From contig NZ_BMKA01000005.1 of the NCBI RefSeq assembly GCF_014643735.1, forward strand, positions 62,245-126,244: a stretch of 64,000 nt of DNA, in the 5' to 3' direction. This document shows positions 5,165 to 36,447 of the stretch, piece by piece (position 1 is the stretch's first letter; each line of letters opens with the position of its first letter). This DNA is from Neptunicoccus cionae. GTDB taxonomy: Bacteria; Pseudomonadota; Alphaproteobacteria; Rhodobacterales; Rhodobacteraceae. Under the pieces are notes generated by a model. The model was not told where the DNA came from. It worked only from the letters and a program-made list of their open reading frames with translations, and made no database searches. Position numbers and translations under genes: made by a program.

Positions 5165-5174
5165 CTCTTTCTCC

Positions 5175-8036: not shown

Positions 8037-8075
8037 ATTTTTTATCTTAAAAGAAGGCCGCGAACGACCGCCGGA

Positions 8076-9032: not shown

Positions 9033-9367
9033 AGTGTTCTCCTCTTTTTTGCTCACGTTAACGAACCCTGCTCGCGCAGGGAAAAATTGTCCGAATGGCA
9101 CAAAGCGGCAGCTCTCGTGCGAGCAGTATTTCGAAGCTGCGGCGCTCTCCTTAAAGCGAAGCGCAAACAAGCACCAGCAGGAAAAACAAAGGCTTATCTG
9201 CCTCTCTTCCCCCCCCTGTCATTCATCACGCTAGTAAGTGTTTTCCTTTGTTGTCAAGTAAGTTGTCACTTGAAGACAAGACAATCGCTGCTTTCTTGAC
9301 TGCATTTATTTTCGCGCTATGGTTTGGTCGCTGGCCACCCTTGCAACGCCCGCAAAAGCCGGTTTTG
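9033..9367. promoter_or_regulatory. Upstream region of the TAXI-TRAP operon
   Basis: This 335-base gap holds no convincing gene. It contains repeated TTGTC/GACAA elements around 9251-9283, including CAAGT at 9255-9259 facing ACTTG at 9268-9272, which form a partial dyad suited to a regulator. The gap lies upstream of the TAXI-TRAP operon and downstream of the LysR gene, so it should carry the transporter promoter. Exact -35 and -10 boxes are not clear. Confidence 0.35.
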
Positions 9368-10333: not shown

Positions 10334-10473
10334 TTGCCCCGTCCTTTTAAGCGCCCTGCTGCCCTGCCATCGCTCACATTAACCAAATCAATGCGATCTA
10401 TGGTTTATATCAATTTGCCCAATTCAAAGACCCCGTGCAATAGTTAACATGACTTAAGGGAACAGGGGCCGGA
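10334..10473. promoter_or_regulatory. Divergent promoter region, LysR / polyamine operon
   Basis: A 140-base AT-richer segment separates the LysR start from the first transporter gene. Around 10380-10430 it contains AT-rich half-sites of the T-N11-A type that LysR proteins bind, but no single operator stands out. Promoters for both directions must lie here because no other gap precedes either transcription unit. Confidence 0.4.
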
Positions 10474-11346: not shown

Positions 11347-11347
11347 C

Positions 11348-12139: not shown

Positions 12140-12176
12140 ACCAAACCAATAAGAACCAACCAACAAGGAGAAAACT

Positions 12177-13343
12177 ATGAAAAAGATAGATAGCACAAAA
12201 CGGTACGAAATGCTGAAGGAACGCATGGGCAATGGCGATATGGATCGCCGCTCCTTCTTTGGCCTGCTGGGTGCTGCGGGGATGTATGCCGGTGTGTCCG
12301 GCGGCATCATGACCGCAATGGCACAGCAGGCCCGCGCCGCGGGAACCGAGCTGTACTTTGAAGGCTGGGGCGGCGTTGTATCCGAAGCCCTGCGCAAACA
12401 TGCTTTTAACCCTTACCAAGAAGCCACTGGCAACAAGGTGGTGGATTCCACTTTCGGCGGAGAGGCCGAGGTGCTGACCAAAATCAAAGCGGCAGGAAAT
12501 ACGGATGGTCACAACATCCTGCATTCCTCGGGCGTCAGCTGGTACAAACGCTGGGTTGATGCGGGGTACGGGTCCGAATTGAACCTTGCCAACATCCCCA
12601 ATGTGGAAAACGTGATGGACGCGATCATCGCGCCGTTCAAGGCAATCACGCCAAACAGCCTGTCCGCCATTCCTTATGACTACGGCACAACGGGTATCGC
12701 GTATAACACCAAACATGTCTCTGCCGAGAAAGCCAAAGAACTGGGCGCGAACCTGCTGCTGGATAAGGAGCTGAAGGGCAAGATCGGCGCGTGGGGTGGC
12801 GACTGGGCCAACCGTGCATGGTACGGGGCGCTGCAATCCAATCAGGACCCGAACAATATCGAGGATTGGGATGCGGTTTGGGACAAGGCCCGCGAAAACC
12901 GCGATCTGGTGCTGAAATACTGGTCATCCGGTGCCGAATTGATGGACCTTCTCGCGAAAGAGGAAATCTACGTCACCGAAGCATGGTCCGGCCGTGTCGC
13001 AGCACTTCAAGCCCAAGGCCACCCGATTGCCTATATGGACCCGCCAAACGGTTTGGCGTGGATGGAAAGCATGTTCGTGTTGAAAGGCTCTCCGATGGCC
13101 GAGGCCGAGGAACTGCTGAACTTCATGCTTGACCCAGCCACCGCGATTGCCGTGGCCGAGGGGCAGAAATACCCGACCTCGCTCGACCCGAACAAGGTCG
13201 AGATGACCGACACGATCAAGGCGCTTCCTGCTTATGATCCGACAGGCAAGCTGGACAAATTGGTGTTCCGCGATCCGGTGGTCTGGAATGAGGTCGAGAA
13301 AGCCCAGTCCAAACAGTGGAACCGTGTCTCCAAGGGCGGCTGA
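12177..13343 (+). CDS. Polyamine-type ABC transporter substrate-binding protein, PotD-like
   Basis: A 388-residue periplasmic binding protein. The N-terminus carries a twin-arginine-like export signal: polar residues 1-23, then DRRSFFGLLGAAGMYAGVSG and a likely cleavage site after QQARA. Export through Tat rather than Sec is therefore inferred. The mature part begins with LYFEGWGGVVSEALRKHAF and has the two-lobe layout of family 1 binding proteins for polyamines. The ATG follows AAGGAGAAAACT, the strongest ribosome-binding site of the operon, as expected for an abundant binding protein. A short GC-rich hairpin follows the gene. Confidence 0.87.
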   Translation: MKKIDSTKRYEMLKERMGNGDMDRRSFFGLLGAAGMYAGVSGGIMTAMAQQARAAGTELYFEGWGGVVSEALRKHAFNPYQEATGNKVVDSTFGGEAEVLTKIKAAGNTDGHNILHSSGVSWYKRWVDAGYGSELNLANIPNVENVMDAIIAPFKAITPNSLSAIPYDYGTTGIAYNTKHVSAEKAKELGANLLLDKELKGKIGAWGGDWANRAWYGALQSNQDPNNIEDWDAVWDKARENRDLVLKYWSSGAELMDLLAKEEIYVTEAWSGRVAALQAQGHPIAYMDPPNGLAWMESMFVLKGSPMAEAEELLNFMLDPATAIAVAEGQKYPTSLDPNKVEMTDTIKALPAYDPTGKLDKLVFRDPVVWNEVEKAQSKQWNRVSKGG

Positions 13344-13373
13344 TTACTACAGGCCAATCCGATACCCAACAAC

Positions 13374-13401
13374 GGCGGGGCGCAACAGGATGCGGCCCGC
13401 C
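13374..13401 (+). repeat. Stem-loop after the PotD-like gene
   Basis: GGCGGG at 13374-13379 faces CCCGCC at 13396-13401 in the 92-base gap between the binding protein and ATPase genes. No T-run follows. Its position immediately after a binding-protein gene resembles the stem-loops at 8013 and 25255 and suggests a 3' stabiliser that sets subunit ratios. Confidence 0.45.
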
Positions 13402-13435
13402 TGCCCTATAAAGTCTGAATTAGGAACCCCTGCCT

Positions 13436-14512
13436 ATGGCGCGTGTTGAACTTGTCGACATCAAGAAATCCTTTGGCGCGGTCAAAGCCGTCCGCAACGC
13501 CAATATCGTGTTCGAGGACGCGTCCTTCACCACACTGCTCGGCCCGTCCGGCTGTGGCAAAACCACCATTCTGCGGATGATCTCCGGTTTGGCCGACCCG
13601 ACGAGCGGTGACATTCTGATCGGCGGCAATCGGGTGAACGAAGTGCCGATCCACAAGCGCAATCTGGGGCTGGTGTTTCAGAATTACGCGCTGTTTCCCC
13701 ATCGCACCATCGGGGAAAACATTGCCTTCGGGTTGAAATACCGTGGGGTGCCGAAATCCGATGTAACGCGCAAGGTGCGGGAATCCCTGGATATTGTGCG
13801 CCTTCCAGGGGTCGAGTACCGCTACCCCCAACAACTGTCTGGCGGGCAACAACAGCGTATCGCGCTGGCGCGTGCCATTGTGATCGAACCGGATGTGCTG
13901 CTGCTTGATGAACCGTTGTCCGCCCTTGATGCCAACCTGCGCGAAGATATGCGGGTGGAGCTGAAGGCCATTCAGGACCGCATCGGCGTGACCACCATTT
14001 TTGTGACCCACGACCAGTCCGAAGCGCTCGCCATGTCTGACAAGATCGTCGTGATGAGCGCGGGACGGGTGGAACAGATCGGCAATCCCGATGAGGTTTA
14101 TAACACCCCCGCGTCCGAATTTGTCGCGTCCTTCCTTGGCGCGTCCAATCTGTTGCCAGCCCGCGTTATCGGGCGCGATGCAAATGGCGTGGCGCTGGAA
14201 ACCGCCGAATTTGGCAAAACCGTCGTCCCCGCCAACCGCGCGGCAACGCTGGGGGATGGGGATCGCGGCCAATTGATGGTGCGCGCTGAAAAACTGTTCC
14301 TGTCCGATGGTCCGGCCACACCAGACAGCACGCAAGCCGTGATCGAGGCTGTGGATTACCAAGGCCAGCTTGCCCGCTATTTCCTGCGCGTGGGCGACAC
14401 ACAGTTGCAAGCGATCAACATGATTTCGGGCCGTCCCTTTGCTGCGGGCAGCACCGTGAACCTGACCCTAGCTGCGGATGAATGCAGCGCCCTGCCCCTG
14501 AAAGACGCCTGA
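13436..14512 (+). CDS. Polyamine-type ABC transporter ATP-binding protein, PotA-like
   Basis: A 358-residue ATPase. It has a Walker A motif GPSGCGKTTILR, a Q-loop in VFQNYALFPH, the signature LSGGQQQRIALARA, Walker B LLLDEPLSALD and the switch histidine in FVTHDQSEA. Residues after about 240 form the TOBE-type regulatory domain common to this class. It energises uptake by the two permeases encoded upstream. The gene is separated by one base from the aminotransferase gene that follows. Confidence 0.92.
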   Translation: MARVELVDIKKSFGAVKAVRNANIVFEDASFTTLLGPSGCGKTTILRMISGLADPTSGDILIGGNRVNEVPIHKRNLGLVFQNYALFPHRTIGENIAFGLKYRGVPKSDVTRKVRESLDIVRLPGVEYRYPQQLSGGQQQRIALARAIVIEPDVLLLDEPLSALDANLREDMRVELKAIQDRIGVTTIFVTHDQSEALAMSDKIVVMSAGRVEQIGNPDEVYNTPASEFVASFLGASNLLPARVIGRDANGVALETAEFGKTVVPANRAATLGDGDRGQLMVRAEKLFLSDGPATPDSTQAVIEAVDYQGQLARYFLRVGDTQLQAINMISGRPFAAGSTVNLTLAADECSALPLKDA

Positions 14513-23182: not shown

Positions 23183-24073
23183 TTATGACTGGGCTTTCAG
23201 AATACGTTGCAACACATCAGTTGCCTGCTGACCCTTCAGGCTCTGCTGCCAGATCCGTTCGGCCACCGACTGGTGCAGCTTTACGGATTCTTCTGCCGCT
23301 GTGATCGTCGCCACCCCGATCCGCACGTTGGCCGAAGCGCCAAGCCGGAACGGGCTTGTGGCTACCTGTGCGCTGGTGCCTTTGCGCAGGATTTGAAAGA
23401 TCGTGCTGGGCATGGAATCCTGAACGATCCCGATCTGCATCCCGATGGGTTGCTCCTCGATCAGGGACTGGATGTTACGGATTTCTGCGCGGGCCAGTTC
23501 GTAACGCTCCGGCGGCACTGGCTGGCCGCTGTGCAGGTTCCCCACAAACCCCGAGGATAGGAACTGCTCCAGTTCGGAGGCAGACAACAACCCGATCAGG
23601 TTTGGCTTACGCGCCCGAAACTGTTCTTTGCGCCGCAACAGGATTTCGGTCAGTTGCGCGATAGAGGATTCCAGCCCGTCGCGGTTCGCAGCATTCTCCG
23701 GCACACTCTCGCGCAGGACTTGGGGTAACATCTCGTCATAAGCATCCGTGGTCAGCAGGTAAGGCACCGGCCCGAAAAGCACCGTGATCTGATCCGCTTC
23801 GGATTCAATCTGGCGCAAACGCTCAAAGAACGTGACCGCGGAAGGGATATTTTCCGATCCAACCCCGAACAGCGAGGCAAGCGAAACATCCAGAAGATCT
23901 GCAATTTTCCCTAGCGCATCGACGCGGATCGGCTGGCCCGATTCATACCTGTAAATCGCTGCACGAGAGATTCCTGTCGCTGCGGCAACCTCCTCTGGCG
24001 TAAGCCCGGCGCCCAGTCTATAGGACTTCAACCGTCTGCCAATGTCCGAGATCATTTGATATTGAGATGTCAT
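23183..24073 (-). CDS. XRE family transcriptional regulator with C-terminal sensor part
   Basis: A 296-residue regulator. Residues 7-65 form a Cro/CI-type helix-turn-helix (GAGLTPEEVAAATGISRAAI, then YRYESGQPIRVDALGKIADL). The remaining 230 residues are mixed alpha/beta without a recognised enzyme motif and may bind a ligand. The gene is divergent from the TRAP-pyr operon, and a perfect 20-bp palindrome lies between them. It is convergent with the tetR gene, 21 bases away. Control of the TRAP-pyr operon in response to its substrate is the natural inference. Confidence 0.85.
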   Translation of the reverse strand: MTSQYQMISDIGRRLKSYRLGAGLTPEEVAAATGISRAAIYRYESGQPIRVDALGKIADLLDVSLASLFGVGSENIPSAVTFFERLRQIESEADQITVLFGPVPYLLTTDAYDEMLPQVLRESVPENAANRDGLESSIAQLTEILLRRKEQFRARKPNLIGLLSASELEQFLSSGFVGNLHSGQPVPPERYELARAEIRNIQSLIEEQPIGMQIGIVQDSMPSTIFQILRKGTSAQVATSPFRLGASANVRIGVATITAAEESVKLHQSVAERIWQQSLKGQQATDVLQRILKAQS

Positions 24074-24146: not shown

Positions 24147-24166
24147 AATTCTCAAATTTGAGAATT
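24147..24166. promoter_or_regulatory. Perfect 20-bp palindrome, probable operator for the XRE regulator
   Basis: AATTCTCAAA at 24147-24156 is directly followed by its reverse complement TTTGAGAATT at 24157-24166. A plausible promoter for the TRAP operon has TTGAGA at 24158-24163 as -35 and TACATT at 24180-24185 as -10, sixteen bases apart, so the palindrome would cover the -35 box. Binding there should repress the operon. The promoter assignment is less certain than the palindrome. Confidence 0.72.
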
Positions 24167-24224
24167 GTCTTGACTTTGATACATTGCTGCGGTCCTTTAG
24201 CAAGAATTAACAGTGGAGAACACA

Positions 24225-25238
24225 ATGACGTTTAAAACAAATCTCACCCGCCGCGCTTTGGGGGCGCTTGCTTTGGGGGCGCTGGCCCTATCCGCCGCAC
24301 CCGTCGCTGCACAAGACTTCACCGCGCGGATTGGCCATCTGGAATCAACCCAGCAAAGCCGCCATGTGCATCTGGAAAAAGTTGCTGAACTGGTTAAGGA
24401 ACGCACCAACGGTGCCGTTGAATTCCAGATTTTCCCGCAGGCCCAACTGGGCAACCAGCGCCAAATGACTGAAGGTGTGCAGCTTGGCACGCTGGAAGCA
24501 ACTGTTGCACCGGCGGCGTTTCTGGGCGGGTTCAACCCTGCCGTTTCCGTTCTGGACATTCCTTACCTGATGCCAGCCGATCCTGCCGCCGCACAAGCCT
24601 TGCGCGAAGGTCCCTTCGGCGATGCGCTGCTGGCGTCCTTTGACAAACGCGGCGTAGTGGGCGTTGCCTGGTGGCCCAACGGCATGAAGAACTTCACCTC
24701 CAACGCGCCACTGGATGACATTGCGGCCTTTGCAGACCAGAAGTTCCGCGTGATGGATTCCAACATCCTGATCGAACAGTTCAACGCCCTTGGCGCATCG
24801 GCCATCGCACTGCCCTTTGGCGAGCTGTATACATCCCTGCAAACCGGCGTTGTTGACGGGCAGGAAAACCCGCTCGACACCATCCAGCGCATGAAGTTCT
24901 TCGAAGTGCAGGACTATCTTGTTGTGTCCGAGCACGGCGCGATGGAAGACATGGTATTGTTCAACCCGATGTGGTGGAACAGCCTGCCAGATGAATACAA
25001 AACCGTTATTCAGGACACATTCAACGAAGTCGTCCCCGCCCTGACAGAGCACAAAGCCGCTGCCGTGGCAGAGGCCCTGAAAGTGATCGGCGAAAGCGAC
25101 ATCAACATCCGCGAAGCATCCGCAGAAGAGCGCACAGCCTTTGCCGAAAAAATGACACCGCCAGCCACTGCCGCCTATATCAAGCGCGCAGGCGATGAGG
25201 GCGAAGCCCTTATCGAAACCTACAACGCCAACAAGTAA
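24225..25238 (+). CDS. DctP-type TRAP transporter solute-binding protein
   Basis: A 337-residue periplasmic binding protein. The signal peptide is TNLTRRALGALALGALALSA ending at PVAAQ, and the mature part begins DFTARIGHLESTQQSRHVHL. The family core is recognisable in VEFQIFPQAQLGNQRQMTEG and in LYTSLQTGVVDGQENPLDTI, which includes the helix that contacts the ligand carboxylate; FRVMDSN supplies the conserved arginine. The ATG at 24225 has GGAG seven bases upstream; the in-frame GTG at 24213 is not needed. The ligand is unknown, but the pyr genes that follow point to a carboxylated pyrimidine precursor such as orotate, dihydroorotate or N-carbamoylaspartate. Confidence 0.9.
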   Translation: MTFKTNLTRRALGALALGALALSAAPVAAQDFTARIGHLESTQQSRHVHLEKVAELVKERTNGAVEFQIFPQAQLGNQRQMTEGVQLGTLEATVAPAAFLGGFNPAVSVLDIPYLMPADPAAAQALREGPFGDALLASFDKRGVVGVAWWPNGMKNFTSNAPLDDIAAFADQKFRVMDSNILIEQFNALGASAIALPFGELYTSLQTGVVDGQENPLDTIQRMKFFEVQDYLVVSEHGAMEDMVLFNPMWWNSLPDEYKTVIQDTFNEVVPALTEHKAAAVAEALKVIGESDINIREASAEERTAFAEKMTPPATAAYIKRAGDEGEALIETYNANK

Positions 25239-25254
25239 GCGTTAATCAATCCGG

Positions 25255-25299
25255 TCGGGTCCGCCACTGGTGGGCCCGATCACGCTATCCCCCGTGATC
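25255..25299 (+). repeat. Two overlapping hairpins between dctP and dctQ
   Basis: Bases 25255-25265 pair with 25269-25279 in an 11-bp stem (two G-T pairs) with a three-base loop. A second inverted repeat, GATCACG at 25278-25284 and CGTGATC at 25293-25299, shares two bases with the first, so the end pairs of the two stems cannot both form. No T-run follows. The position after a binding-protein gene suits mRNA stabilisation and adjustment of binding protein to permease ratio. Confidence 0.55.
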
Positions 25300-25330
25300 C
25301 GCCTTGCCGGTTGCAGCCAGAGGACCGAAT

Positions 25331-25843
25331 TTGAAACTCCTTAACCTACTCAGACTTGTGGAAAGAACCTTCCTCGTCAGCGTCTTTCTCGCCATGGTCA
25401 TTCTGTTTTTCGGTAATGTCATCGCGCGGGAGATCGGAGGCACATTTGCCAGCCGCTTTGCTTGGATCGAAGAGGCCGTGCGCTTTATGAACGTCTTTCT
25501 GGTGTTCATCGCTCTTGGCCTGACCCTTGAAAAAGGCCGCCATGTAGGGATTGATACCCTGCGCAACAAACTCTCCGGCACGCCCCGCATTGCCCTGTTG
25601 AAACTGATCGACGGCGTCGGGTTTTTCTTTGCCATTTACCTTGCATGGCTTGGCACCAGCCTTGTGGAATTTGTCCTGATGACCGGCCAGCGCAGCCCGA
25701 CCCTGAACATCCCCATCGGCTGGGTCTATATGGCGCCGGTTACGGGCTTCGGCCTGCTGGCCCTGCGATTTGCCCTGTCGTTTTTCGGCGTCATCGACCG
25801 TTTTTCCGAAAACCAGCATGTGATCGAAGGGGATGAAGCATGA
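25331..25843 (+). CDS. TRAP transporter small permease, DctQ
   Basis: A 170-residue protein with four hydrophobic segments, the DctQ layout. The core includes FVFIALGLTLEKGRHVGIDT (with the leading residues LV) and LNIPIGWVYMAPVTGFGLL. The start is taken as TTG at 25331, which has GAGGA six to seven bases upstream and gives the N-terminus KLLNLLRLVERTFL after Met; a TTG at 25304 is open but lacks a site. The stop overlaps the DctM start (ATGA), so both permeases are made together. Confidence 0.87.
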   Translation: MKLLNLLRLVERTFLVSVFLAMVILFFGNVIAREIGGTFASRFAWIEEAVRFMNVFLVFIALGLTLEKGRHVGIDTLRNKLSGTPRIALLKLIDGVGFFFAIYLAWLGTSLVEFVLMTGQRSPTLNIPIGWVYMAPVTGFGLLALRFALSFFGVIDRFSENQHVIEGDEA

Positions 25844-27120
25844 TCCTGATTGTTATCGCGCTCGCCATCATCCTTCTGGTGCTCGGGTTTGAGATGTTTC
25901 TCGTGCTGGGTGTTCCTGCCCTTGCCACTAAGGAACTGTTCTATGGCAACCTGCCAGATCCGGCGGTTGTGCAGAAAATATTCGGCGGCGTGGATCATTC
26001 CACCCTGCTGGCGATCCCCTTCTTTATCTTTGCCGCCCATCTGATGGGGTCGGGCCAGATTGCCCGCAACCTCACCGGATTTGTGCGTGCCATGATCGGC
26101 CACACCCGTGGCGGTATGGGGCACACTGTCATCGGCGGCTCTATGGCTTTCGGCTCGGTGTCCGGCTCTGCCCCTGCGACGGTGGCGGCTATGGGCAAGA
26201 TGGTCTACCCCGAGATGCGCAAGAACGGGTTTTCCGAAAAATTCAGCCTTGGCCTGTTGGTGGCGAGTGCGGAAACAGCCCTGCTGATCCCACCTTCGAT
26301 CACCTTTATCATCTACGGCTGGATGACCGGCACCTCTATCGCGCGGTTGTTTGCGGGCGGTTTGGCTGTTGGTGTGTTTCTGGGTTTGGCCTTTGCCATC
26401 ATGGTCTGGATCGAAGCCAAGCGCAGAGGCATTGAACCGGACGCGAGATCCTCTTGGGGGCAGCGGTATCAGGCGTTGAAAGACTCCGCTTGGGCGCTGG
26501 GGATGCCGGTCATTATCCTTGGCGGTATCTATTCCGGCACGATCACCCCGACCGAGGCCGCAGCCGTCAGCGTGGTCTACGCGATCTTTGTGGAAATGGT
26601 CATCTACCGGAATTTCGGCTTCAAGGACCTGTTCCGCATCACCGAACAAAGCGCGATTTCCACCTGTGTGATCTTTATCCTTCTGGCGATGGGGGGGCTG
26701 ATTTCCTTCTACGTCACACTGGCGCAGGTTCCGACACAGATCACCGATTTCCTGACGGCGATTGACGCGGGTCCAATCCAGTTCCTGCTGGCGGTTAACA
26801 TCTGTTTTCTGATTGCGGGGATGTTCATTGACCCGAACTCTGCCCTGCTGATCCTTGTGCCACCGCTGTTTCCTGTGGCCATGGCGCTGGGGGTTGATCC
26901 GGTCCATTTCGGAATGATCGTCACGCTGAACATCAGTCTTGGCATGATCACTCCGCCCTTTGGTCTGGATATATTCGTGGCCTCCTCCACCCTGCAAAAA
27001 CCGGTACTAAGCATCATTAAGGGGGTCTGGCCATTCGTCTTTGTGAACATCCTTGTCCTGCTGGTGATCACTTACGTACCGCAAATCTCACTTTTCATCC
27101 CGAAGATGCTCTTCGGCTAA
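25840..27120 (+). CDS. TRAP transporter large permease, DctM
   Basis: A 426-residue membrane protein of the DctM family with about twelve hydrophobic segments. Characteristic stretches are GSMAFGSVSGSAPATVAAMG, LIPPSITFIIYGWMTGTSIA and MITPPFGLDIFVASSTLQKP. It carries out Na+-driven transport of the ligand delivered by the DctP protein. It is followed 12 bases later by the pyrK-like gene, so transport and pyrimidine enzymes appear to be one transcription unit. Confidence 0.92.
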   Translation: MILIVIALAIILLVLGFEMFLVLGVPALATKELFYGNLPDPAVVQKIFGGVDHSTLLAIPFFIFAAHLMGSGQIARNLTGFVRAMIGHTRGGMGHTVIGGSMAFGSVSGSAPATVAAMGKMVYPEMRKNGFSEKFSLGLLVASAETALLIPPSITFIIYGWMTGTSIARLFAGGLAVGVFLGLAFAIMVWIEAKRRGIEPDARSSWGQRYQALKDSAWALGMPVIILGGIYSGTITPTEAAAVSVVYAIFVEMVIYRNFGFKDLFRITEQSAISTCVIFILLAMGGLISFYVTLAQVPTQITDFLTAIDAGPIQFLLAVNICFLIAGMFIDPNSALLILVPPLFPVAMALGVDPVHFGMIVTLNISLGMITPPFGLDIFVASSTLQKPVLSIIKGVWPFVFVNILVLLVITYVPQISLFIPKMLFG

Positions 27121-27132
27121 GAAAGGCAAAAT

Positions 27133-27978
27133 ATGTCACTGATACAAAGGCATAGCGCCGGAGAGGGTTCTCCGGCGAACGGGACAACTCATGAAGTTGA
27201 AACCACTGTAAAGTCGAACACACCCGTGAATGGCGAGTACCGTCTGCTGACGCTCGACGCGCCGCAATCGGTTCTGGATTGCAAACCGGGTCAGTTTTTT
27301 CACATCCTCTGCCCTGTCACCATGGCAGAGCAACCCTACCTGCGCCGCCCGATGAGCATCTATGGCTATTCCGCGGAAAAGGGCGAATTGCAGTTCCTGT
27401 ATAAAGTCACCGGCGAAGGCACACGGGCGCTGGCAACACTGACAAAGGGCGACAAGTTGAACGTGCTTGGTCCGCTGGGTGTGGGGTTTACCATTCAGGA
27501 CGACTGGCAGAACCTTTTGCTGCTGGCGCGGGGTGTCGGGCTGGCCACGCTTGCGCCGCTGGCACAGGAAGCGCAACGCCTGAACCGCAAGCTGGTGGCG
27601 ATCTGCTCGGCGCGGAACGAAGACGTGCTGATGTCTATCGACCACTTCAAAGCCCTTGGCGCAGAGGTGATCACCGTGACCGATGCACAAGGCACCTCCG
27701 ATCTGGAGAACCTGCGCGAGATCATCGAAAATCAAATCGCTGATCACGGCGTGGACGTTATGTATACCTGCGGATCGAACCGGATGCTGAAGCTGCTGCA
27801 AGAGATCGGCGCGAAACATGATATCCCCGGTGAAATCGCACTGGAACAGCAAATGGCCTGCGGGCTTGGCATGTGCCAATGCTGCGTGCGCTCCTTCAAT
27901 CGCAACGGCACAATCACGCAAGAACGGGTGTGCCGCGAAGGCCCCGTTTTTGGCATAGAGGAGGCGATGGCATGGTAG
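27133..27978 (+). CDS. pyrK: Dihydroorotate dehydrogenase electron transfer subunit (PyrK-like)
   Basis: A 281-residue ferredoxin-reductase-type flavoprotein. FAD binding is suggested by LRRPMSIYGYS and the nucleotide domain by NLLLLARGVGLATLAPLAQE. The C-terminal 2Fe-2S motif is complete: C-x4-C-x2-C in QMACGLGMCQCCVRSF and the fourth cysteine in ERVCREGPVFG. In class 1B dihydroorotate dehydrogenases this subunit passes electrons between NAD(H) and PyrD. The N-terminal 25 residues are unusually polar for PyrK and may not be conserved. Its stop overlaps pyrD. A function in oxidising another dihydropyrimidine cannot be excluded. Confidence 0.85.
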   Translation: MSLIQRHSAGEGSPANGTTHEVETTVKSNTPVNGEYRLLTLDAPQSVLDCKPGQFFHILCPVTMAEQPYLRRPMSIYGYSAEKGELQFLYKVTGEGTRALATLTKGDKLNVLGPLGVGFTIQDDWQNLLLLARGVGLATLAPLAQEAQRLNRKLVAICSARNEDVLMSIDHFKALGAEVITVTDAQGTSDLENLREIIENQIADHGVDVMYTCGSNRMLKLLQEIGAKHDIPGEIALEQQMACGLGMCQCCVRSFNRNGTITQERVCREGPVFGIEEAMAW

Positions 27979-28916
27979 ACCTGACGACCAAAATCGGCAG
28001 CCTGACACTGGCAAACCCGATCATGCCGGCCTCTGGCACGTTTTCCGAAGACCTGTCCGAAGTGCTGGACCTGCACCAGTTGGGCGCCCATGTGACCAAG
28101 ACAATTACCGCGGAAAAGCGGGGCGGCAACCCCACGCCTCGGGTCTGCGAGGTACGCGGGTCCATGCTGAATTCGATCGGCATCCCATCAAAAGGCGTGC
28201 AGCATTTCATCGAAAACACAATCCCGTTCTACAACGCCTATGACGTGCCTTTGGTGGTCAGCATCTCGGCTAATTCCGCCGATGAATTCGCCCGTATTTG
28301 TGAACAGGTTTCCGTTCCCGGCGTGGCCGCGATTGAGGTGAATATATCCTGCCCGAACATCGAAGAAGACGGCAAGGCCTTTGCCATGCGCCCCTCCACT
28401 ACCACCGCCGTGATGGAAAAGCTGCGCAGCGCCTCTGACCTGCCGCTTTGGGCAAAGCTAAGCCCCAACACAGGAGAAACTATCGAAGTCGCCCTTGCCG
28501 CAGAAGAGGCTGGCGCGGATGCGTTGGTGGTGGCGAATACGCTGCTGTCTATGGCGATTGACATCCACACCCGCAAACCGAAATTGGGCAATCTGATGGG
28601 TGGCTTGTCCGGCCCGTCCCTGAAACCTATTGCCCTGCGCATGGCCTATCAATGTGCCAAATCGGTTCAAATCCCGGTGATCGGCTGCGGCGGCATTTCC
28701 ACCGTAGAAGACATCGTTGAATACCTGATTGCAGGGGCCACAGCCGTGCAGGTCGGCACCGCAACCTTTATCAATCCCAACATTATGGTGACTCTGCTGG
28801 GGCAGTTGGAATCCTATCTGGAAACGCAAAACATCGCCAGCCTCAGCGATCTGGTCGGCTCGGTTCGCGATGAAGATGCAGCGGATTCAGTCGTGTTCAT
28901 GGAGACCGCACCATGA
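27972..28916 (+). CDS. pyrD: Dihydroorotate dehydrogenase, class 1B catalytic subunit (PyrD-like)
   Basis: A 314-residue FMN TIM-barrel enzyme. It opens VDLTTKIGSLTLANPIMPAS after the initiator Met and has EVNISCPNI near the FMN, LWAKLSPNTGE with the flavin lysine, GGLSGPSLKPIALRM, and IPVIGCGGISTVEDIVEYL with AVQVGTA for the phosphate. A cysteine occupies the base position in NISCPNIEEDGKAF, as in class 1 enzymes. It interconverts dihydroorotate and orotate with NAD(H) through PyrK. The ATG at 27972 overlaps the pyrK stop. Most alphaproteobacteria rely on a quinone-linked class 2 PyrD, so this may be an extra, operon-specific enzyme; that needs the rest of the genome. Confidence 0.85.
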   Translation: MVDLTTKIGSLTLANPIMPASGTFSEDLSEVLDLHQLGAHVTKTITAEKRGGNPTPRVCEVRGSMLNSIGIPSKGVQHFIENTIPFYNAYDVPLVVSISANSADEFARICEQVSVPGVAAIEVNISCPNIEEDGKAFAMRPSTTTAVMEKLRSASDLPLWAKLSPNTGETIEVALAAEEAGADALVVANTLLSMAIDIHTRKPKLGNLMGGLSGPSLKPIALRMAYQCAKSVQIPVIGCGGISTVEDIVEYLIAGATAVQVGTATFINPNIMVTLLGQLESYLETQNIASLSDLVGSVRDEDAADSVVFMETAP

Positions 28917-30193
28917 GCACAGCGCCCTTTACAGTTGATCCGGACGAACTGCGCCTCGCCACGCGGTGGTTCGACGACATCTACAACATGAGCCGCGACC
29001 GCCTTGGAGTATCCCGTCCGGCGTATTCCGCCAAAGAAACCGAGGTTCTGGAATTTCTGGCCGAACTATGCCGCGCAGAGGGGCTGGCTGTGGAAACCGA
29101 TGCGGGGCAGAACCTGTTGTTTTCCCTACCCGAAGATGCGGACGCCGAAAAATTCGTGATTGTAGGCTCCCATGTCGATTCTGTGCCGATGGGTGGAAAC
29201 TATGACGGTATGGCAGGCGTTCTGGCCGGTTTGATGTGCCTGTTCCGCGCCCGCAAAAACGGCACCCGTTTTGCCAGACCAGTAAAGGTTCTGGCCATGC
29301 GGGGTGAAGAAAGCGCGTGGTTTGGTCCCTGCTATATCGCCTCCAAGGCACTAATGGGCACCCTTGACAGCGACGAACTGGCCTCTGCCCACAAAGGCGA
29401 CGGCCGCAGCCTTGCGGATCATATGGGGGATGTAGGAATTGACATGGCGCAGGTTTCCAACGGCCAGCCTCTCATGGATAAATCCGACATTCTGGAATAT
29501 ATCGAACTGCATATCGAACAGGGGCCGTTGCTGATCGGCAAGGAGCAACCAGCGGCTGTTGTTTCGGGCATTCGCGGTAATTTCCGGCACAAACAGGTTC
29601 GCTGTATCGGGGAGGCGGGCCATTCCGGTGCCGTGCCCCGCGCGTTTCGCAAAGACCCTGTGCTGGCGATGGCGGACCTGTTATCCCGACTGGACGAAAG
29701 CTGGCTGACCATCGTTCAAAAGGGCGATGATCTGGTGCTGACCTCTGGCGTGGTCGGGACCGATCCTGAACGCCACGCCATGTCCCGCATTGCCGATGAA
29801 ATCCGCTTCTCGCTGGATGTGCGCAGCCAGAACAGCGAGGTTCTTGCGGCCATGACCCAGCTTTTGCGCGAAGAAATGGACAAGATCGCAAGGGAACGCG
29901 GCGTCCGTTTTGATCTTGGCGATGTGAATAACACGCCCCCTGCCCTGATGACGCCGGAACTGGTGGCGCAGCTGGAACAGGCCATGGGCCGCCTTGGTAT
30001 GGAACCCACCACAATGGCGTCAGGCGGCGGTCATGATGCGGCGGTGTTTTCCAATGCCGGTGTTCCTGCTGCGATGGTTTTTGTGCGCAACCAGAACGGC
30101 TCTCATAATCCGGACGAAGCGATGGAGATCGAGGATTTTCTTGCTGGTGTCTCGATCATTTATGAGTATCTGGTTAGAACTGCGCCATGTTGA
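28913..30193 (+). CDS. M20-family Zn-dependent hydrolase, N-carbamoyl-amino acid hydrolase / allantoate amidohydrolase type
   Basis: A 426-residue amidohydrolase. Metal ligands can be seen in [20 protein letters not shown] (His and Asp), [11 protein letters not shown] (Glu), [10 protein letters not shown] (His) and [20 protein letters not shown] (His); the lid domain follows near residue 215 ([20 protein letters not shown]). In typical HyuC relatives the glutamate motif is followed by glycine and an aromatic residue; here it is Glu-Glu-Ser. The family removes carbamoyl groups from N-carbamoyl amino acids with release of CO2 and ammonia. Between pyrD and pyrE the most tempting substrate is N-carbamoylaspartate (ureidosuccinate), which would feed aspartate and nitrogen; this is inference. 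Start and stop are coupled to the neighbours. Confidence 0.82.
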
Positions 30194-30236
30194 AACCGCG
30201 CCCTGTCACACCGCACCCCACTGCAAAGGATCACAG

Positions 30237-30929
30237 ATGAGCAGCCATTTCCCACCCCGCGAGGTGATGAGCGAAACCACCGCGAATATGCTGCTGGAAA
30301 TCGACGCAGTGCATTTCAACGCGGAGAAACCTTTCACCTTCACCTCCGGCATCGCCAGCCCCGTTTACATCGACTGTCGCAAGATCATCGCCTATCCGCG
30401 CCTGCGCGATATGGTGACAGCGTTTTCCGTGTCGTTGATCCTGCGGGACGTAGGGTTTGAACAATTCGACGCGGTTGCAGGTGGTGAAACCGCTGGCATC
30501 CCCTTTGCCGCATGGATCGCCAAGGAAATGGGCCTGCCGATGCATTACGTGCGCAAAAAGCCCAAGGGCTTTGGGCGGGCTGCCCAGATTGAAGGCGACA
30601 TTCAGGAAGAACAACGGGTGCTTCTGGTGGAGGATCTGACAACGGACGGCGGCAGCAAAATCAACTTTTGCAATGCCTTGCGCCGTGCGGGTGCCAAAGC
30701 CGATCACGCCATCGTCGTGTTTTACTATGACATCTTCCAGCAAACCCGCGACAGGCTGGACGCGGACGGCATCACGCTGCATTCCCTTGCCACATGGTGG
30801 GATGTTCTGTCCGCCAGCAAGAAGCAAAACCGCTTTGACACCAAAACACTCACCGAAGTAGAGGGGTTCTTGAACGCGCCTCTCGACTGGTCCGCCAGAC
30901 ACGGCGGCATTTCCCATCTTACACTTTAA
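30237..30929 (+). CDS. pyrE: Orotate phosphoribosyltransferase
   Basis: A 230-residue type I phosphoribosyltransferase. The PRPP motif is [20 protein letters not shown], the hood region includes [20 protein letters not shown], and [19 protein letters not shown] and [20 protein letters not shown] hold the catalytic loop lysines. It transfers orotate to PRPP to give OMP in pyrimidine synthesis. The ATG at 30237 follows AAGGATCACAG. A stand-alone pyrE in a transporter operon fits salvage of imported orotate; it could also be the only pyrE of the genome. Confidence 0.9.
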
Positions 30930-30939
30930 GGAGCACGCT

Positions 30940-31272
30940 ATGATGTTTGATCAAATTCTGGAAACCCTGCGCGACAATGGCAAAAGCGGCGCGGCTTACA
31001 CAAAAACCATCGCACTGGCCGAACAGGCGATGAAAGACGACGCGGAGCGCGCGGTCGCCTATGGATTGCTGTGCGAACTGGGCGAGCGGTTTCTTGAGTC
31101 CACGGGCCGTTTGCCTGTCACCTCGGTACAGATCGACAAAGCCTTTGAGGAATTTTCCAAAGCCACTAACGATTTGAAAGCCGCCTATGACAAAGGTGAT
31201 GCGGGTGAAACGCTACAGACCGTTAACGCTATTGCCACGCTCAGCCGCACGCCGCTGGACCTGTCGGCGTAA
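30940..31272 (+). CDS. Small helical protein of unknown function
   Basis: A 110-residue acidic protein starting after AAGGAGCACGCT. It is predicted to be almost all helix, for example TIALAEQAMKDDAERAVAYG and IDKAFEEFSKATNDLKAAYD, and has no signal peptide, membrane segment or metal motif. It lies ten bases after pyrE in the same operon and precedes a hairpin. I do not recognise the family. Position suggests an accessory role with pyrimidine salvage. Confidence 0.72.
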   Translation: MMFDQILETLRDNGKSGAAYTKTIALAEQAMKDDAERAVAYGLLCELGERFLESTGRLPVTSVQIDKAFEEFSKATNDLKAAYDKGDAGETLQTVNAIATLSRTPLDLSA

Positions 31273-31285
31273 GTGGACCCGACCC

Positions 31286-31317
31286 TTTCATCCGGCAGAA
31301 TCCCTTGCCGGATGAAA
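31286..31317 (+). terminator. Perfect 12-bp hairpin closing the TRAP-pyr operon
   Basis: TTTCATCCGGCA at 31286-31297 and TGCCGGATGAAA at 31306-31317 pair perfectly around an eight-base loop, 14 bases after the stop of the small gene. The bases after it are A-rich rather than T-rich, so it is not a textbook terminator, but the stem is strong and separates this operon from the urease genes. Confidence 0.6.
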
Positions 31318-31533
31318 GAAAACAGAGACTGTTCGCGCCCATTTCAGATCGCTGATTTTCTAAGCAGATAGACTACACTCTGATTAAATTCTAAACACAT
31401 GCCTGTTTTTAGGGCAGGAAAAACAACCCTCCTCTGCCCCTGCGCCTCACGCTGTGGTCGTGCTGTTTTCGAACCGTCAAAGCACACCGCACCCGCGTGA
31501 GGATACCCTATCAACAGCCCCGCCCCCATAGAT

Positions 31534-32352
31534 TTGCAGACTGACCGTCCTGCCCAGCCCCGCGCTGTCGGCGCTGCGAAGCTTGGCTTGCGCGCCGATC
31601 CGTCGGGACGTACAGGCATAACCGATCTCCGCCAGTCCGGCGCGCTTAAGCTGGTGTTTCCCCGACAGTTAACGAACAGCGCCGAGACCATTTTAGTGAA
31701 CACCGCTGGCGGGATTACGGGTGGCGACCGGTACGATCTGGATATTGATGTCGGGGCTGGTGCTGCGCTTAGCCTGACCACCCAAGCGGCAGAGCGTGCC
31801 TACCGCGCCCAGCGCGGGGAAACTGGCAAGGTCACAACCCGCATCACGGTACAATCCGGTGCGCAAATGAACTGGCTGCCCCAAGAGCTGATCCTGTTTG
31901 AACGCTGCGCATTGAACCGGCGTTTGTCTATTGATCTGCAAGGTGATGCCCGTCTGTTAATGGTAGAGCCTGTCGTTTTCGGCCGCGCTGCGATGAAAGA
32001 GGTTCTGCGCGACATTCACTTATACGACCGTATCTCGATCACGCGGGACGGTCGCCCGCTCTATCTTGACGCCATGAAAATCAGCGGTGACGCGGCGGCC
32101 CGTCTGGCCCGTTCTGCGATTGCCAATGGTGCGGGTGCGATGGCGAGCGTTCTTTGTGTGACACCCGAAATTGCCGCCAACCTTTCCGCCGTGCGCGAGA
32201 TGCTTCCCGCAACGGCCGGTGCCAGCCTGATCGCACCCGATACGCTGGTGATCCGCCAGCTTGCACAAGACAGTTATATGCTGCGTCGCAGCCTGATGCC
32301 CCTGCTGGAGCACCTATCCCAATCCCCATTGCCCGCATCTTGGAGGCTGTAG
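31534..32352 (+). CDS. ureD: Urease accessory protein UreD
   Basis: A 272-residue UreD protein, the chaperone that with UreF and UreG inserts nickel into urease. Family features are LVFPRQLTNSAETILVNTAG followed by GITGGDRYDLDI, then QMNWLPQELILFERCALNRR. The reading frame offers only a TTG (31534) at the position expected from the family, without an evident ribosome-binding site, so the exact start is uncertain. It is the first gene of ureDABCEFG. Confidence 0.9.
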   Translation: MQTDRPAQPRAVGAAKLGLRADPSGRTGITDLRQSGALKLVFPRQLTNSAETILVNTAGGITGGDRYDLDIDVGAGAALSLTTQAAERAYRAQRGETGKVTTRITVQSGAQMNWLPQELILFERCALNRRLSIDLQGDARLLMVEPVVFGRAAMKEVLRDIHLYDRISITRDGRPLYLDAMKISGDAAARLARSAIANGAGAMASVLCVTPEIAANLSAVREMLPATAGASLIAPDTLVIRQLAQDSYMLRRSLMPLLEHLSQSPLPASWRL

Positions 32353-32355
32353 CCC

Positions 32356-32658
32356 ATGCAACTCACCCCCCGTGAAAAAGAGAAACTTCTCATCGCGCTC
32401 GCTGCTGAAGTGGCGCGCAAGCGGCTGGCCCGTGGCGTCAAGCTGAACCATCCAGAGGCTATTGCCATGATCACGGATGCAGTGGTCGAAGGCGCACGGG
32501 ACGGACGCTCTGTCGCCGACATGATGGAGGCGGGCGGCAAGGTTGTCACGCGGGCCGATTGTATGGAAGGCATCCCCGAAATGATCCCCGAAGTGCAGGT
32601 CGAAGCCACCTTCCCCGATGGCACCAAGCTTGTCACCGTTCACAACCCGATCAGATAG
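32356..32658 (+). CDS. ureA: Urease gamma subunit
   Basis: A 100-residue protein with the full UreA pattern: [40 protein letters not shown], and a C-terminus [15 protein letters not shown]. It is one of the three structural subunits of urease, which hydrolyses urea to ammonia and carbamate. The start lies three bases after the ureD stop. Confidence 0.96.
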
Positions 32659-32667
32659 GAGCCACCC

Positions 32668-32973
32668 ATGATCCCCGGAGAACTCTTTCCCGCTGAAGGC
32701 ACGTTAACCCTGAACGCCGACGCAATGGCCGTGACGCTGATGGTGGCAAATACCGGCGACCGGCCGGTGCAGGTGGGCAGCCACTATCATTTTGCCGAAA
32801 CCAACCCCGCGCTGGAGTTCGACCGCGCAAAGGCCCGTGGCTTGCGGCTGGATATAGCCGCCGGAACAGCAGTGCGGTTCGAGCCGGGCCAGCGCCGCGA
32901 AGTGCAGTTGATCCCGCTTGGCGGCGATCGCAAGGTTTACGGCTTCAATCAACACGTTATGGGGGCGCTATAA
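32668..32973 (+). CDS. ureB: Urease beta subunit
   Basis: A 101-residue UreB beginning [16 protein letters not shown], with [20 protein letters not shown] and [20 protein letters not shown]. It packs with UreA and UreC in the urease trimer. The ATG follows AGGAGCCACCC. The stop directly abuts the ureC start. Confidence 0.96.
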
Positions 32974-34683
32974 ATGCCTGTAGAAATTTCCCGCGCGCAA
33001 TATGCGGCAATGTATGGTCCTACCACCGGGGATAAACTGCGGCTGGCTGATACCGATCTGATTATCGAGGTGGAACGGGATCTCACCACCTACGGCGAGG
33101 AAGTAAAATTTGGCGGCGGCAAAGTCATCCGCGATGGTATGGGCCAATCCCAAGCCACCCGCGCGCAAGGGGCTGTAGACACAGTCATCACCAACGCGCT
33201 AATCGTGGATCATTCCGGAATTTATAAGGCGGATGTGGCGCTGAAAGACGGGCTGATCCACGCGATTGGCAAAGCCGGCAACCCTGACACCCAACCCGGC
33301 GTGGATATTATCGTAGGGCCCGGCACCGAGGTAATTGCGGGTGAAGGGCGTATCCTGACTGCGGGCGGTATGGACAGCCATATCCACTTTATCTGCCCCC
33401 AACAGATGGAGGACTCGCTGCATTCCGGTGTGACCACCTGTTTTGGCGGCGGCACTGGTCCAGCGCAAGGAACGCTCGCCACCACTTGCACGCCCGGTCC
33501 CTGGCACATCGGGCGGATGTTGCAATCTTTTGACGGGATCGCCATGAACATCGGCCTTGCAGGCAAGGGTAATGCCAGCCGCCCCGATGCGCTGGTTGAA
33601 ATGGTCAAGGGCGGGGCTTGTGCCTTGAAGTTGCACGAAGATTGGGGCACCACACCTGCCGCCATTGATTGCTGCCTGTCTGTGGCGGATGACATGGACG
33701 TACAGGTGATGATCCATACCGATACCTTGAATGAATCGGGTTTCGTGGAACACACCGTCGGCGCGATCAAGGGGCGGACGATCCACGCTTTCCATACCGA
33801 AGGCGCTGGCGGCGGCCATGCTCCGGACATCATCAAGATTTGCGGCGATGCCAATGTGCTGCCGTCCTCTACCAATCCGACCCGTCCTTTCACCGTCAAC
33901 ACTTTGGAAGAGCATCTCGATATGCTGATGGTCTGTCATCATCTGGACAAATCCATCCCCGAGGACATCGCCTTTGCTGAAAGCCGCATCAGGCGGGAAA
34001 CCATCGCGGCTGAAGATATTCTTCATGACATGGGCGCGTTCTCCATCATCGCATCTGACAGTCAGGCAATGGGTCGTGTCGGAGAAGTGTTGATCCGCAC
34101 ATGGCAAACGGCGGACAAGATGAAAAAGCAGCGGGGACGACTGGCCGAAGAGACCGGCGAGAACGACAATCTGCGGGTGCGCCGCTATATTGCGAAATAC
34201 ACGATAAATCCGGCGATTGCCCAAGGGGTCGGCCATGTGCTCGGCGATATTACTGTGGGCAAACGAGCGGATCTTGCCCTGTGGTCTCCGGCGTTTTTCG
34301 GGGTAAAGCCTGAAATGGTTCTGCTGGGCGGCAGCATCGCTGTGGCGCAAATGGGCGATCCAAATGCGTCGATCCCGACTCCCCAACCGGTTTATTCCCG
34401 TCCGATGTTTGCAAGTTACGGCGGCTCACTTGTTCACTCTTCGGTCAGCTTCATCTCTGGCGCGGCACAGTCCGATGGTCTGCGCGACCAGCTTGGTCTG
34501 TCAAAACAGACTGTCGCTGTCGAGAACACCCGCAACATTGGCAAAAAGGACATGGTGCTGAATGCGGCCCTTCCAGAAATCGAAGTCCATCCCGAAACCT
34601 ACGAAGTGCGCGCGGACGGCGAACTTCTGACCTGTCAGCCCGCCGAGATTCTGCCGATGGCGCAACGCTATTTCATGTTTTAG
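32974..34683 (+). CDS. ureC: Urease alpha subunit (catalytic)
   Basis: A 569-residue amidohydrolase carrying the bi-nickel site. The first metal histidines lie in [19 protein letters not shown], the lysine to be carbamylated in [19 protein letters not shown], further histidines in [20 protein letters not shown] and [19 protein letters not shown], the mobile flap cysteine/histidine in [20 protein letters not shown], and the aspartate in [14 protein letters not shown]. All essential residues are present and the length is standard, so it should be active once nickel is inserted. It starts immediately after the ureB stop. Confidence 0.97.
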
Positions 34684-34692
34684 GAGCTAACG

Positions 34693-35202
34693 ATGGCTAC
34701 GCTACCGATTGCACAAACACTTCACCGCGCGGGGGGGTGGTCCGGTCCGGCAGACAGCTGCGTTCTGGATTACACAGGCCGTTTCTTGCGGCGCAAACGT
34801 CTGACAACCGCCAGCGGCATTCCGTTTCTAGTGGACTTGCCCCAGACCACATCGCTGAACGATGGCGATGGGCTGGAACTGGAAAGCGGCGGAATGATCC
34901 GCATTACCGCAGCGAGTGAAGCCCTGTTTCAAATCACGGGCCCTGATCTGGTGCGCCTCGCGTGGCATGTGGGCAACCGGCACACGCCCTGTCAGATTGA
35001 AAGCGATCATCTGTTGATACAGAACGATCCGGTGATCGGGCATATGCTGGAACATCTCGGCGCAACGCTGAAGCAGGTGAACCGCCCCTTCACACCGGAA
35101 GGTGGTGCATACGGGCATGGGCGTACCCATTCCCATGCGCCCGGGGCGACCGCCCATTCTGCGGTTCATTTCGACACACACGCCCACTCCCATGAGCATT
35201 GA
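34693..35202 (+). CDS. ureE: Urease accessory protein UreE (nickel chaperone)
   Basis: A 169-residue UreE. The N-terminal domain includes DYTGRFLRRKRLTTASGIPF, and the metal-binding domain includes RLAWHVGNRHTPCQIE and QNDPVIGHMLEHLGA, with the conserved surface histidine. The last 35 residues are histidine-rich ([23 protein letters not shown]), a nickel reservoir seen in many UreE proteins. It delivers Ni2+ to the UreG-UreF-UreD complex. The gene overlaps ureF by 11 bases. Confidence 0.94.
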   Translation: MATLPIAQTLHRAGGWSGPADSCVLDYTGRFLRRKRLTTASGIPFLVDLPQTTSLNDGDGLELESGGMIRITAASEALFQITGPDLVRLAWHVGNRHTPCQIESDHLLIQNDPVIGHMLEHLGATLKQVNRPFTPEGGAYGHGRTHSHAPGATAHSAVHFDTHAHSHEH

Positions 35203-35839
35203 ACAGGATGCGCTGACGCTGGCGCAGTGGCTGTCTCCCGCTTTCCCGATCGGGGCTTTTGCCTATTCTCACGGGCTGGAAGCGGCGATCCACAGCGGTC
35301 TGATCCAAACGGGTGACGATCTGCGCACCTGGCTGGAGGACACCGTGCAACACGGCAGCGGGCGCAATGACTGCATCCTGCTTCGCGCGGCCTATGTCTG
35401 CACCTCTCCCGCCGCCCTGTCAGAGGTAAATAACACCGGACTGGCCTTTGCCGCGAGCGCAGAGCGGCGCTTGGAGAGCACCCTTCAAGGCACCGCTTTT
35501 TGCAAAACCGCCACAGCCGTTTGGGGCGGGGATGCGGCCAGTCTGATCTATCCCGTAGCTGTCGGTGCGGCCGCTGCGCGACTGTCGCTGAATGTGGATT
35601 TGACGGCTGTTCTGTTTGTGCAATCCATGACAGGCAATCTGGTGTCTGCCGCCCAGCGCCTGATGTCGCTGGGCCAGACCGACGGGCAGGCAATCCTCGC
35701 CGCGCTCTTGCCCCTGTGTCAGGCAGTCGCCGCGGGCACCAAACACGCAGGTCTCGACGATCTGGAAAGCACCGCCTTTCTGTCGGACATCGCGGCCATG
35801 CAACATGAAACACTACAACCAAGGATTTTTCGCACATGA
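35192..35839 (+). CDS. ureF: Urease accessory protein UreF
   Basis: A 215-residue helical protein opening [20 protein letters not shown], the UreF signature, and later [20 protein letters not shown]. UreF gates the GTPase activity of UreG during nickel insertion. The ATG at 35192 overlaps the end of ureE; the frame is open further upstream only within ureE. The stop overlaps ureG (ATGA). Confidence 0.92.
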
Positions 35840-36447
35840 CTGTTCTGAACGGCCCCCTTCGCGTGGGCATCGGCGGACCTGTGGGCGCTGGCAAGACCAC
35901 ACTGACAGCCGCACTGGCCCGTGCGCTTCACCCTGCTGTTTCGATCGGGGTGATCACCAACGACATCTACACACAGGAAGATGCCGAGGCTTTGATGCGG
36001 ATGCAAGTGTTGCCGCAGGACCGGATTATCGGTGTGGAAACAGGCGGTTGCCCCCATACTGCAATTCGCGAGGATGCCTCTATCAATCTGGCTGCCATTG
36101 CGCAAATGCAACTGCGGCATGACGATCTGGAGGTGGTGCTGATCGAAAGCGGCGGCGACAATCTGTCGGCCACGTTCAGCCCCGAACTCGCCGATTTGAC
36201 GCTCTATGTCATTGATGTTGCCGCTGGCGAAGAAATTCCCCGCAAAGGCGGTCCGGCGATCACCCGCTCGGACCTGCTGGTGATCAATAAGACCGATCTC
36301 GCCCCCCATGTTGGGGCCTCGCTTGAAGTGATGGAGCGGGATTGCATTAAGATGCGCGGCGAACGGCCTTTCGCCTTCTGTGCCCTACGCAACAATGAAG
36401 GCGTGGACGAGGTGCTGAACTTCATCATGCAATGCGGCGGATTGTGA
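35836..36447 (+). CDS. ureG: Urease accessory GTPase UreG
   Basis: A 203-residue G3E-type GTPase. It has the P-loop [19 protein letters not shown], the metal-binding CPH in [19 protein letters not shown], Walker B in [20 protein letters not shown] and the guanine motif [14 protein letters not shown]. It uses GTP hydrolysis to drive nickel delivery to UreC. Last gene of the urease operon; no nickel transporter follows within the window. Confidence 0.95.

Follow-up and report, generated by a model that had tools for sequence, protein, structure and literature searches.

Probable orotate utilisation by an operon that joins a TRAP importer to pyrK, pyrD, an M20 hydrolase gene and pyrE in Neptunicoccus cionae

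Gene content and proposed pathway

The stretch of Neptunicoccus cionae DNA analysed here (the window: 64,000 nucleotides of contig NZ_BMKA01000005.1, positions 62,245 to 126,244) contains an operon in which the genes of a TRAP importer are followed by pyrK, pyrD, a gene for an M20-family hydrolase, pyrE and a small gene. The operon is likely to be an orotate-utilisation unit that combines import of orotate and its breakdown to aspartate, CO2 and NH3 with a salvage branch through PyrE, and it is probably inducible. The gene order is XRE regulator, facing away, and then dctP-dctQ-dctM-pyrK-pyrD-M20 hydrolase-pyrE-small gene, with stop and start overlapping by 4 bases between dctQ and dctM, by 7 between pyrK and pyrD and by 4 between pyrD and the M20 gene. 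These genes, their order and the three overlaps had been described in an earlier note on this DNA, and all of them are present in the sequence.

The same genes recur around pyrD in other genomes. A scan with PyrD confirmed 120 relatives, of which the best 80 were kept, giving 81 loci together with the window; more distant relatives are missing from this set, and because the 80 loci were picked via PyrD, the counts depend on that protein. A gene was counted when its profile match exceeded a fixed threshold and its start lay no more than 6.5 kb from that of pyrD, regardless of strand, and nine loci cut by a contig end downstream of pyrD are included in the totals. All 81 loci have PyrK, and all but L040 and L065 have the M20 hydrolase (79). 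The XRE regulator was matched in 70 loci and the small protein in 65, while PyrE is present in 61 and a dihydroorotase in 46. As for transport, 56 loci have a TRAP system (among them L059, which holds both DctP and MFS and was scored as TRAP), 18 an MFS transporter and three an ABC transporter with an NMT1-type binding protein, while none was seen in four.

In the proposed pathway DctPQM would import orotate, and PyrDK, acting as an orotate reductase with NADH, would convert it to dihydroorotate. A dihydroorotase, presumably provided in the window strain by a copy elsewhere in the genome, would open dihydroorotate to N-carbamoyl-L-aspartate, from which the M20 hydrolase would form L-aspartate, CO2 and NH3. 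PyrE would divert part of the orotate to orotidine monophosphate (OMP) and then to uridine monophosphate (UMP). The XRE regulator would bind the palindrome upstream of dctP, over the promoter, and repress the unit until orotate or an intermediate is present. What the analysis shows is the set of genes, their adjacency and conservation, the operator-like site and the kinship of DctP with an orotate-bound structure. Import is proposed from the crystal ligand of a homologue, and from gene context and known family chemistry we infer the remaining steps with their substrates, the direction in which PyrDK works and the repression by the regulator.

Breakdown would come first and PyrE would be a side branch, because the recurrent core consists of PyrDK and the M20 hydrolase, often with a dihydroorotase and sometimes without PyrE. 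Once orotate is inside the cell, PyrDK would be useful only as a reductase, as it is not needed for UMP. The scavenging of pyrimidine precursors proposed in the earlier note thus appears to be half right: the branch through PyrE stands, while the core genes point first to breakdown to aspartate and ammonia. The step from dihydroorotate to orotate that the note assigned to PyrDK probably runs the other way.

The importer, the enzymes and the regulator

Orotate uptake by this importer, also proposed in the earlier note, is well supported by comparison with a protein of known structure. The DctP, DctQ and DctM domains all score over their Pfam cut-offs, and the best PDB match of DctP is 4NN3 from Maridesulfovibrio salexigens (E 5.7e-128; second-best PDB chain E 1.6e-49), with 64.3% identity over 305 columns. 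A 2024 paper (PMC11668362) mentions in passing that orotic acid was bound in 4NN3, whose residues 76 and 152 it gives as Asn and Lys; a 2018 review (PMC5812351) counts orotic acid among the new TRAP ligands from a 2015 screen. In a midpoint-rooted tree of 73 DctPs, from which the duplicate rows L121x and L124x had been removed, 4NN3 belongs to a four-row clade (support 99/99) with the DctPs of L049, L059 and L151, all of them pyrD-linked loci; support inside the clade is weaker (91/64). The structure is reportedly a product of the screen by Vetting et al. in 2015.

PyrD passes the cut-offs of two models for the class 1B type of dihydroorotate dehydrogenase (DHODH; Table 1) and matches PDB 1ep1 with 246 bits. 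Its NISCPN motif aligns with the same motif in the two best PDB matches, and the Cys in it we take to be the catalytic Cys of class 1B enzymes, at a position where class 2 enzymes have Ser. The neighbouring PyrK-like protein looks and sits like PyrK, though by its sequence it is not filed under the PyrK equivalogs. The earlier note had also raised the matter of another pyrD, and the relatives do have one: a class 2 pyrD over the cut-off (350-412 bits, cut-off 200) lies away from the operon in all 17 operon genomes searched, and the PyrDK of the operon is therefore regarded as accessory.

The M20 hydrolase has N-carbamoyl-L-amino acid hydrolase 3n5f as its best PDB match (E 1.4e-48), followed by AllC 1z2l, and fails the equivalog cut-offs of both AllC (199.4 bits, cut-off 597.75) and ErtE (263.4 bits, cut-off 520). 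N-carbamoylaspartate is the best guess for its substrate, which would make it a ureidosuccinase (EC 3.5.1.7). A carbamoylase makes sense here only if the ring of dihydroorotate is opened, so a dihydroorotase would be the missing step, and such a gene, of which the earlier note makes no mention, is found in the loci of relatives. It has the same strand as pyrD in 46 of 46 loci, and in 36 of them its place is after the M20 gene and before pyrE or the reverse; the two dihydroorotases tested, with 416 and 427 bits, are both over the TIGR00856 cut-off of 293. This cut-off is passed in 16 of the 17 operon genomes searched, all except G011, and the genomes of L001 and L003 have one match each, away from the operon.

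The PyrE of the window groups with other operon PyrEs in a tree from which 13 genome-search rows identical to operon copies were removed beforehand, and the two closest genomes have copies outside the operon (L098, L099) that lie apart from this group. A second pyrE, another point in the earlier note, was found for some relatives only: two PyrE matches above 80 bits are present in 10 of the 17 operon genomes and the rest have a single strong match, which in three (G006, G013 and G014) lies outside the operon. No PyrE over the threshold was found near pyrD in 20 of the 81 loci, but in five of these the sequence after pyrD is shorter than 4.3 kb, and a short open reading frame (ORF) of L019 is PyrE-like with a score below the threshold.

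The XRE regulator has a C-terminal domain with a predicted PLD-like fold, which may resemble the effector domain of TrmB. Between its gene and dctP lies a perfect palindrome, whose first base was also the start of the region described in the earlier note. Its core occurs with at most two mismatches in 43 of 48 regions between divergent XRE and dctP genes (44 sites in 15,036 bases), compared with 21 in 917,747 bases from other parts of these loci, the core having been chosen only after palindromes had been inspected. Promoter-like sites number four in the region when 3.2 are expected from shuffles, which is not significant in itself; the position of one of them over the palindrome fits repression. 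A second XRE-family regulator is found close to ABC-transporter genes near the operon in L012 (18403-19296), L044 (4180-5133) and L045 (4221-5135), as if a paralogue controlled another importer.

The small protein is predicted to be all-helical. In the aligned rows, 30 in number, its Asn N96 is invariant and a YDDQPL motif is frequent. No Pfam match was found for the protein of the window up to E 0.1, and fold comparison gave no convincing match. Because it accompanies TRAP, MFS and ABC forms alike, its role is probably tied to the enzymes or the regulator rather than to transport.

For dctP the ATG at 24225 was taken as the start, the listed ORF beginning upstream at GTG 24213, and the probable start of dctQ is TTG 25331, in a frame open from 25304. 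The unit is closed by an inverted repeat, which has no T run as in a standard terminator and is not among the terminator-like sites found. Directly 3' of the operon is a urease-like gene cluster (window 31534-36447, as judged from ORF translations). By ORF sizes, such a cluster also follows the operon in L002 and L003, whereas the displayed stretch of L001 does not contain it.

Table 1. Features of the operon and its flanks (window positions)
Feature	Position	Strand	Basis
XRE-family regulator	23183..24073	-	HTH (helix-turn-helix) at residues about 15-66 and C-terminal domain of ~220 residues
Probable operator, 20-base perfect palindrome AATTCTCAAATTTGAGAATT	24147..24166	.	Core TTCTCA-N4-TGAGAA at 24149-24164
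Promoter-like site TTGAGA-16-TACATT, overlapping the operator	24158..24185	+	Weak, consensus match only
dctP, TRAP solute-binding protein, probable orotate binder	24225..25238	+	PF03480 279 bits; 4nn3_A E 5.7e-128
dctQ, TRAP small permease	25331..25843 (start approximate)	+	PF04290 94.5 bits
dctM, TRAP large permease	25840..27120	+	PF06808 390.6 bits; TIGR00786 405.6 bits
pyrK-like electron-transfer subunit (FAD / 2Fe-2S), divergent	27133..27978	+	PF10418 41.5 bits (cut-off 23.9)
pyrD, class 1B-type dihydroorotate dehydrogenase	27972..28916	+	NF005574 352.6 bits (cut-off 269); TIGR01037 316.1 bits (cut-off 270)
M20 hydantoinase/carbamoylase-family hydrolase, candidate ureidosuccinase (N-carbamoyl-L-aspartate hydrolase)	28913..30193	+	TIGR01879 277.5 bits (cut-off 204)
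pyrE, orotate phosphoribosyltransferase, operon-type lineage	30237..30929	+	NF001729 378.6 bits (cut-off 245); TIGR00336 112.3 bits (cut-off 106.8)
Small all-helical protein, frequent module member	30940..31272	+	AlphaFold2 mean pLDDT (predicted local distance difference test) 92.4, five helices
Inverted repeat with 13-base arms, 3' of the last gene, closing the unit	31285-31297 / 31306-31318		Read from sequence

Distribution of the module

When 394 genomes of the family, including the centre genome G001, were searched with each protein separately, DctP (E <= 1e-100) was found in 15 genomes at 16 places, 11 of these with at least 66% identity, and PyrD (E <= 1e-90), the M20 hydrolase (E <= 1e-110) and the small protein (E <= 1e-6) in ten genomes each. 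All four are present together on one contig and in the same order in nine genomes (G001, G009, G324, G393, G398, G453, G456, G562 and G605), and the distance between DctP and PyrD is about 3.7 kb. At least six of these genomes had already contributed to the 80 loci, namely G001, G009 and four with identical DctPs. Outside these carriers there are two DctPs with at least 66% identity and five with 51-55%, one PyrD (G566, 51%), one M20 hydrolase (G576, 46%) and one small protein (G643, 57 bits), so that nine of the ten genomes with the small protein are operon carriers. The co-occurrence of TRAP and pyr genes on which the earlier note had staked its proposal thus holds: a chance association is very unlikely because the gene set is conserved side by side in nine of the 394 genomes and its members are rarely found apart. 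Such a rare, nearly all-or-none and patchy distribution fits an accessory function that is passed on by transfer.

Further occurrences of the unit are on a Nitratireductor plasmid and in locus L151 of G032, another alphaproteobacterium among the genomes sampled. A related pyrK-pyrD pair occurs in an Orbaceae genome (L065, around 10001-10906), where no other module gene was found within 6.5 kb of pyrD.

A Klebsiella plasmid derived from milk (L148: NZ_CP050823.1 57265-76173, reversed) carries the order MFS-pyrK-pyrD-M20-pyrC-XRE-small at 6533-13770, with profile scores of 646 bits for MFS, 314 for pyrK, 477 for pyrD, 600 for M20, 483 for pyrC, 375 for XRE and 66 for the small protein (small2). 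PyrE was neither annotated nor matched in the 18.9 kb examined, and lacY and lacZ are located near the orotate set. Klebsiella has a chromosomal pyrimidine pathway, and an extra, plasmid-borne DHODH with a dihydroorotase and no PyrE is therefore hard to explain as biosynthesis. The 5.6-kb Klebsiella stretch was matched by 55 of 72,556 plasmid records, all from Klebsiella and all with at least 99% identity, 53 of them over at least 80% of its length. Milk or mastitis is the source of nine of the 55, and most of the others come from human or environmental samples. Orotate is plentiful in milk, and the position of the plasmid form near lac genes, seen in one record, suggests a possible link to growth in milk.

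A wider picture, to which we give about an even chance of being right, is that of a mobile orotate-degradation module spread across alpha-, beta- and gammaproteobacteria with exchangeable TRAP, MFS and ABC importers. Its novel parts would be an M20 subfamily of ureidosuccinases, a type of regulator that senses orotate and joins XRE and TrmB/PLD-like domains, and a dedicated family of small helical proteins; on Klebsiella plasmids the module would serve the use of milk orotate.

Alternative explanations and known systems

Some of the results weigh against orotate utilisation as described above. None of the PyrK equivalog cut-offs is reached by the PyrK-like protein, whose best score is 140.9 bits against 314. 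No dihydroorotase gene was found in the operon of the window or in those of L001-L003, and for the window we assume this step by comparison with its relatives: G001 and G002 have one TIGR00856 match each, outside the operon. The M20 gene is missing from L040, which is a TRAP locus. PyrE is frequent near pyrD, and four of the 17 operon genomes (G005, G010, G011 and G016) have no PyrE match above 80 bits other than the operon copy. In these four the unit has to supply nucleotide synthesis as well, and both uses must coexist. The identity of DctP alone does not settle the ligand. Two genomes, G432 (71%) and G566 (67%), have a DctP with no pyr genes beside it, and at five further places (51-55%), all in genomes where PyrD had no match, the neighbours are other genes, some of them aromatic-catabolism-like. 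The DctP of G566 and four of these five fall, in the tree, within a group of operon DctPs (98/91) other than that of 4NN3. Because DctPs without an adjacent pyr operon branch among operon DctPs, the tree does not fence off function, and the pocket positions named in PMC11668362, as mapped here, fail to separate the DctP groups.

The surroundings of these exceptions vary. L040 has the order TRAP-pyrK-pyrD-pyrE-small at 1134-7620 and is possibly a salvage-only form. In L137 (8057-10101) a DctP with 71% identity to that of the window has genes resembling an amidohydrolase and a thiolase as neighbours, and no DctQ, DctM or pyr genes were recognised by it. Judging from translations, the 51-55% DctPs of L140, L141, L143 and L144 lie beside branched-chain-type ABC transporter genes or amidohydrolase/decarboxylase-like and oxygenase-like genes; they are perhaps a sister TRAP group for aromatic carboxylates.

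The frequency of PyrE (61 of 81 loci), its separate operon-type lineage and the four genomes with the operon copy as the only strong match could also be explained by nucleotide scavenging, in which dihydroorotate, N-carbamoylaspartate or orotate is imported, PyrDK oxidises dihydroorotate, PyrE makes OMP and the hydrolase removes excess ureidosuccinate. This would account for PyrE better than breakdown does, but for PyrDK, the M20 hydrolase and the Klebsiella set less well. The nearest binding protein is reported to have been crystallised with orotate, and orotate reaches OMP without PyrDK; a class 2 pyrD is present in 17 of 17 genomes; a hydrolase that destroys the precursor is found in 79 of the 81 loci; and PyrE is below the threshold or absent in 20 loci and was not seen in the Klebsiella stretch. 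Scavenging as the main role is therefore considered unlikely. It is more doubtful still that a repurposed DHODH and carbamoylase degrade some other cyclic ureide acid, such as the carboxylate of a substituted dihydropyrimidine or of a hydantoin, and that orotate is a look-alike ligand of DctP. The close DctP relatives that lack pyr genes (G432, G566) or have aromatic-catabolism-like neighbourhoods would fit this, and an M20 protein below the AllC and ErtE cut-offs leaves room for a different substrate. However, PyrD is over the class 1B DHODH cut-off, and PyrE and dihydroorotase travel with the unit (61 and 46 of 81 loci), the two pyrCs tested passing TIGR00856; both enzymes are specific to the pyrimidine pathway via orotate. 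Finally, the supposed pyr genes could belong to a PydABC-type reductive breakdown of uracil or thymine, which has the same logic of reductase, ring opening and carbamoylase, and the PreA model does match PyrD with 133.1 bits. That score is far below the cut-off of 335 while the DHODH models pass theirs, and with PyrE in the unit and a DctP of the orotate type this reading is highly improbable.

If the unit serves orotate utilisation, orotate catabolism in proteobacteria gains candidate genes for uptake (the binding protein), for the reductase and ureidosuccinase steps and for regulation, and annotations that place such genes in pyrimidine synthesis would be corrected. It is also suggested that orotate is a nutrient worth importing by a binding-protein transporter. 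In the literature searched, some of it available in part, no description of a gene system for orotate catabolism in proteobacteria was found, so that the chemistry is known and the gene system is apparently undescribed.

Several components resemble characterised proteins. The Lys, Arg and Asn at the positions given in PMC11668362, as mapped here, are common to 4NN3 and the DctP of the window. The M20 enzymes 3n5f and 1z2l have an Asn (NVIP, NVVP); in the operon M20 proteins the residue aligned with it is Ser, Thr or Ala, and the next one is an almost invariant Arg (R292; 29 rows). Class 1B PyrDB-PyrK (PDB 1ep1-1ep3, from Lactococcus lactis) and the window both pair PyrD with a PyrK that has a 2Fe-2S domain, but the PyrK of the window is divergent and the pair sits in an accessory operon. 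The closest parallel is the fermentation of orotate by the anaerobe Clostridium (Zymobacterium) oroticum, for which Lieberman and Kornberg are said to have described, in the 1950s, an NAD-linked orotate reductase, a dihydroorotase and a ureidosuccinase yielding aspartate, CO2 and NH3. The chemistry is the same as that proposed for the window operon, which by analogy would work like the catabolism of C. oroticum although it is not filed as such. Unlike that route, the unit in the window has no dihydroorotase gene of its own, and its M20 protein is no more than a candidate for the ureidosuccinase step; on the other hand, operons of this type are proteobacterial and unite the enzymes with a TRAP importer, PyrE, the small protein and an XRE regulator dedicated to the unit.

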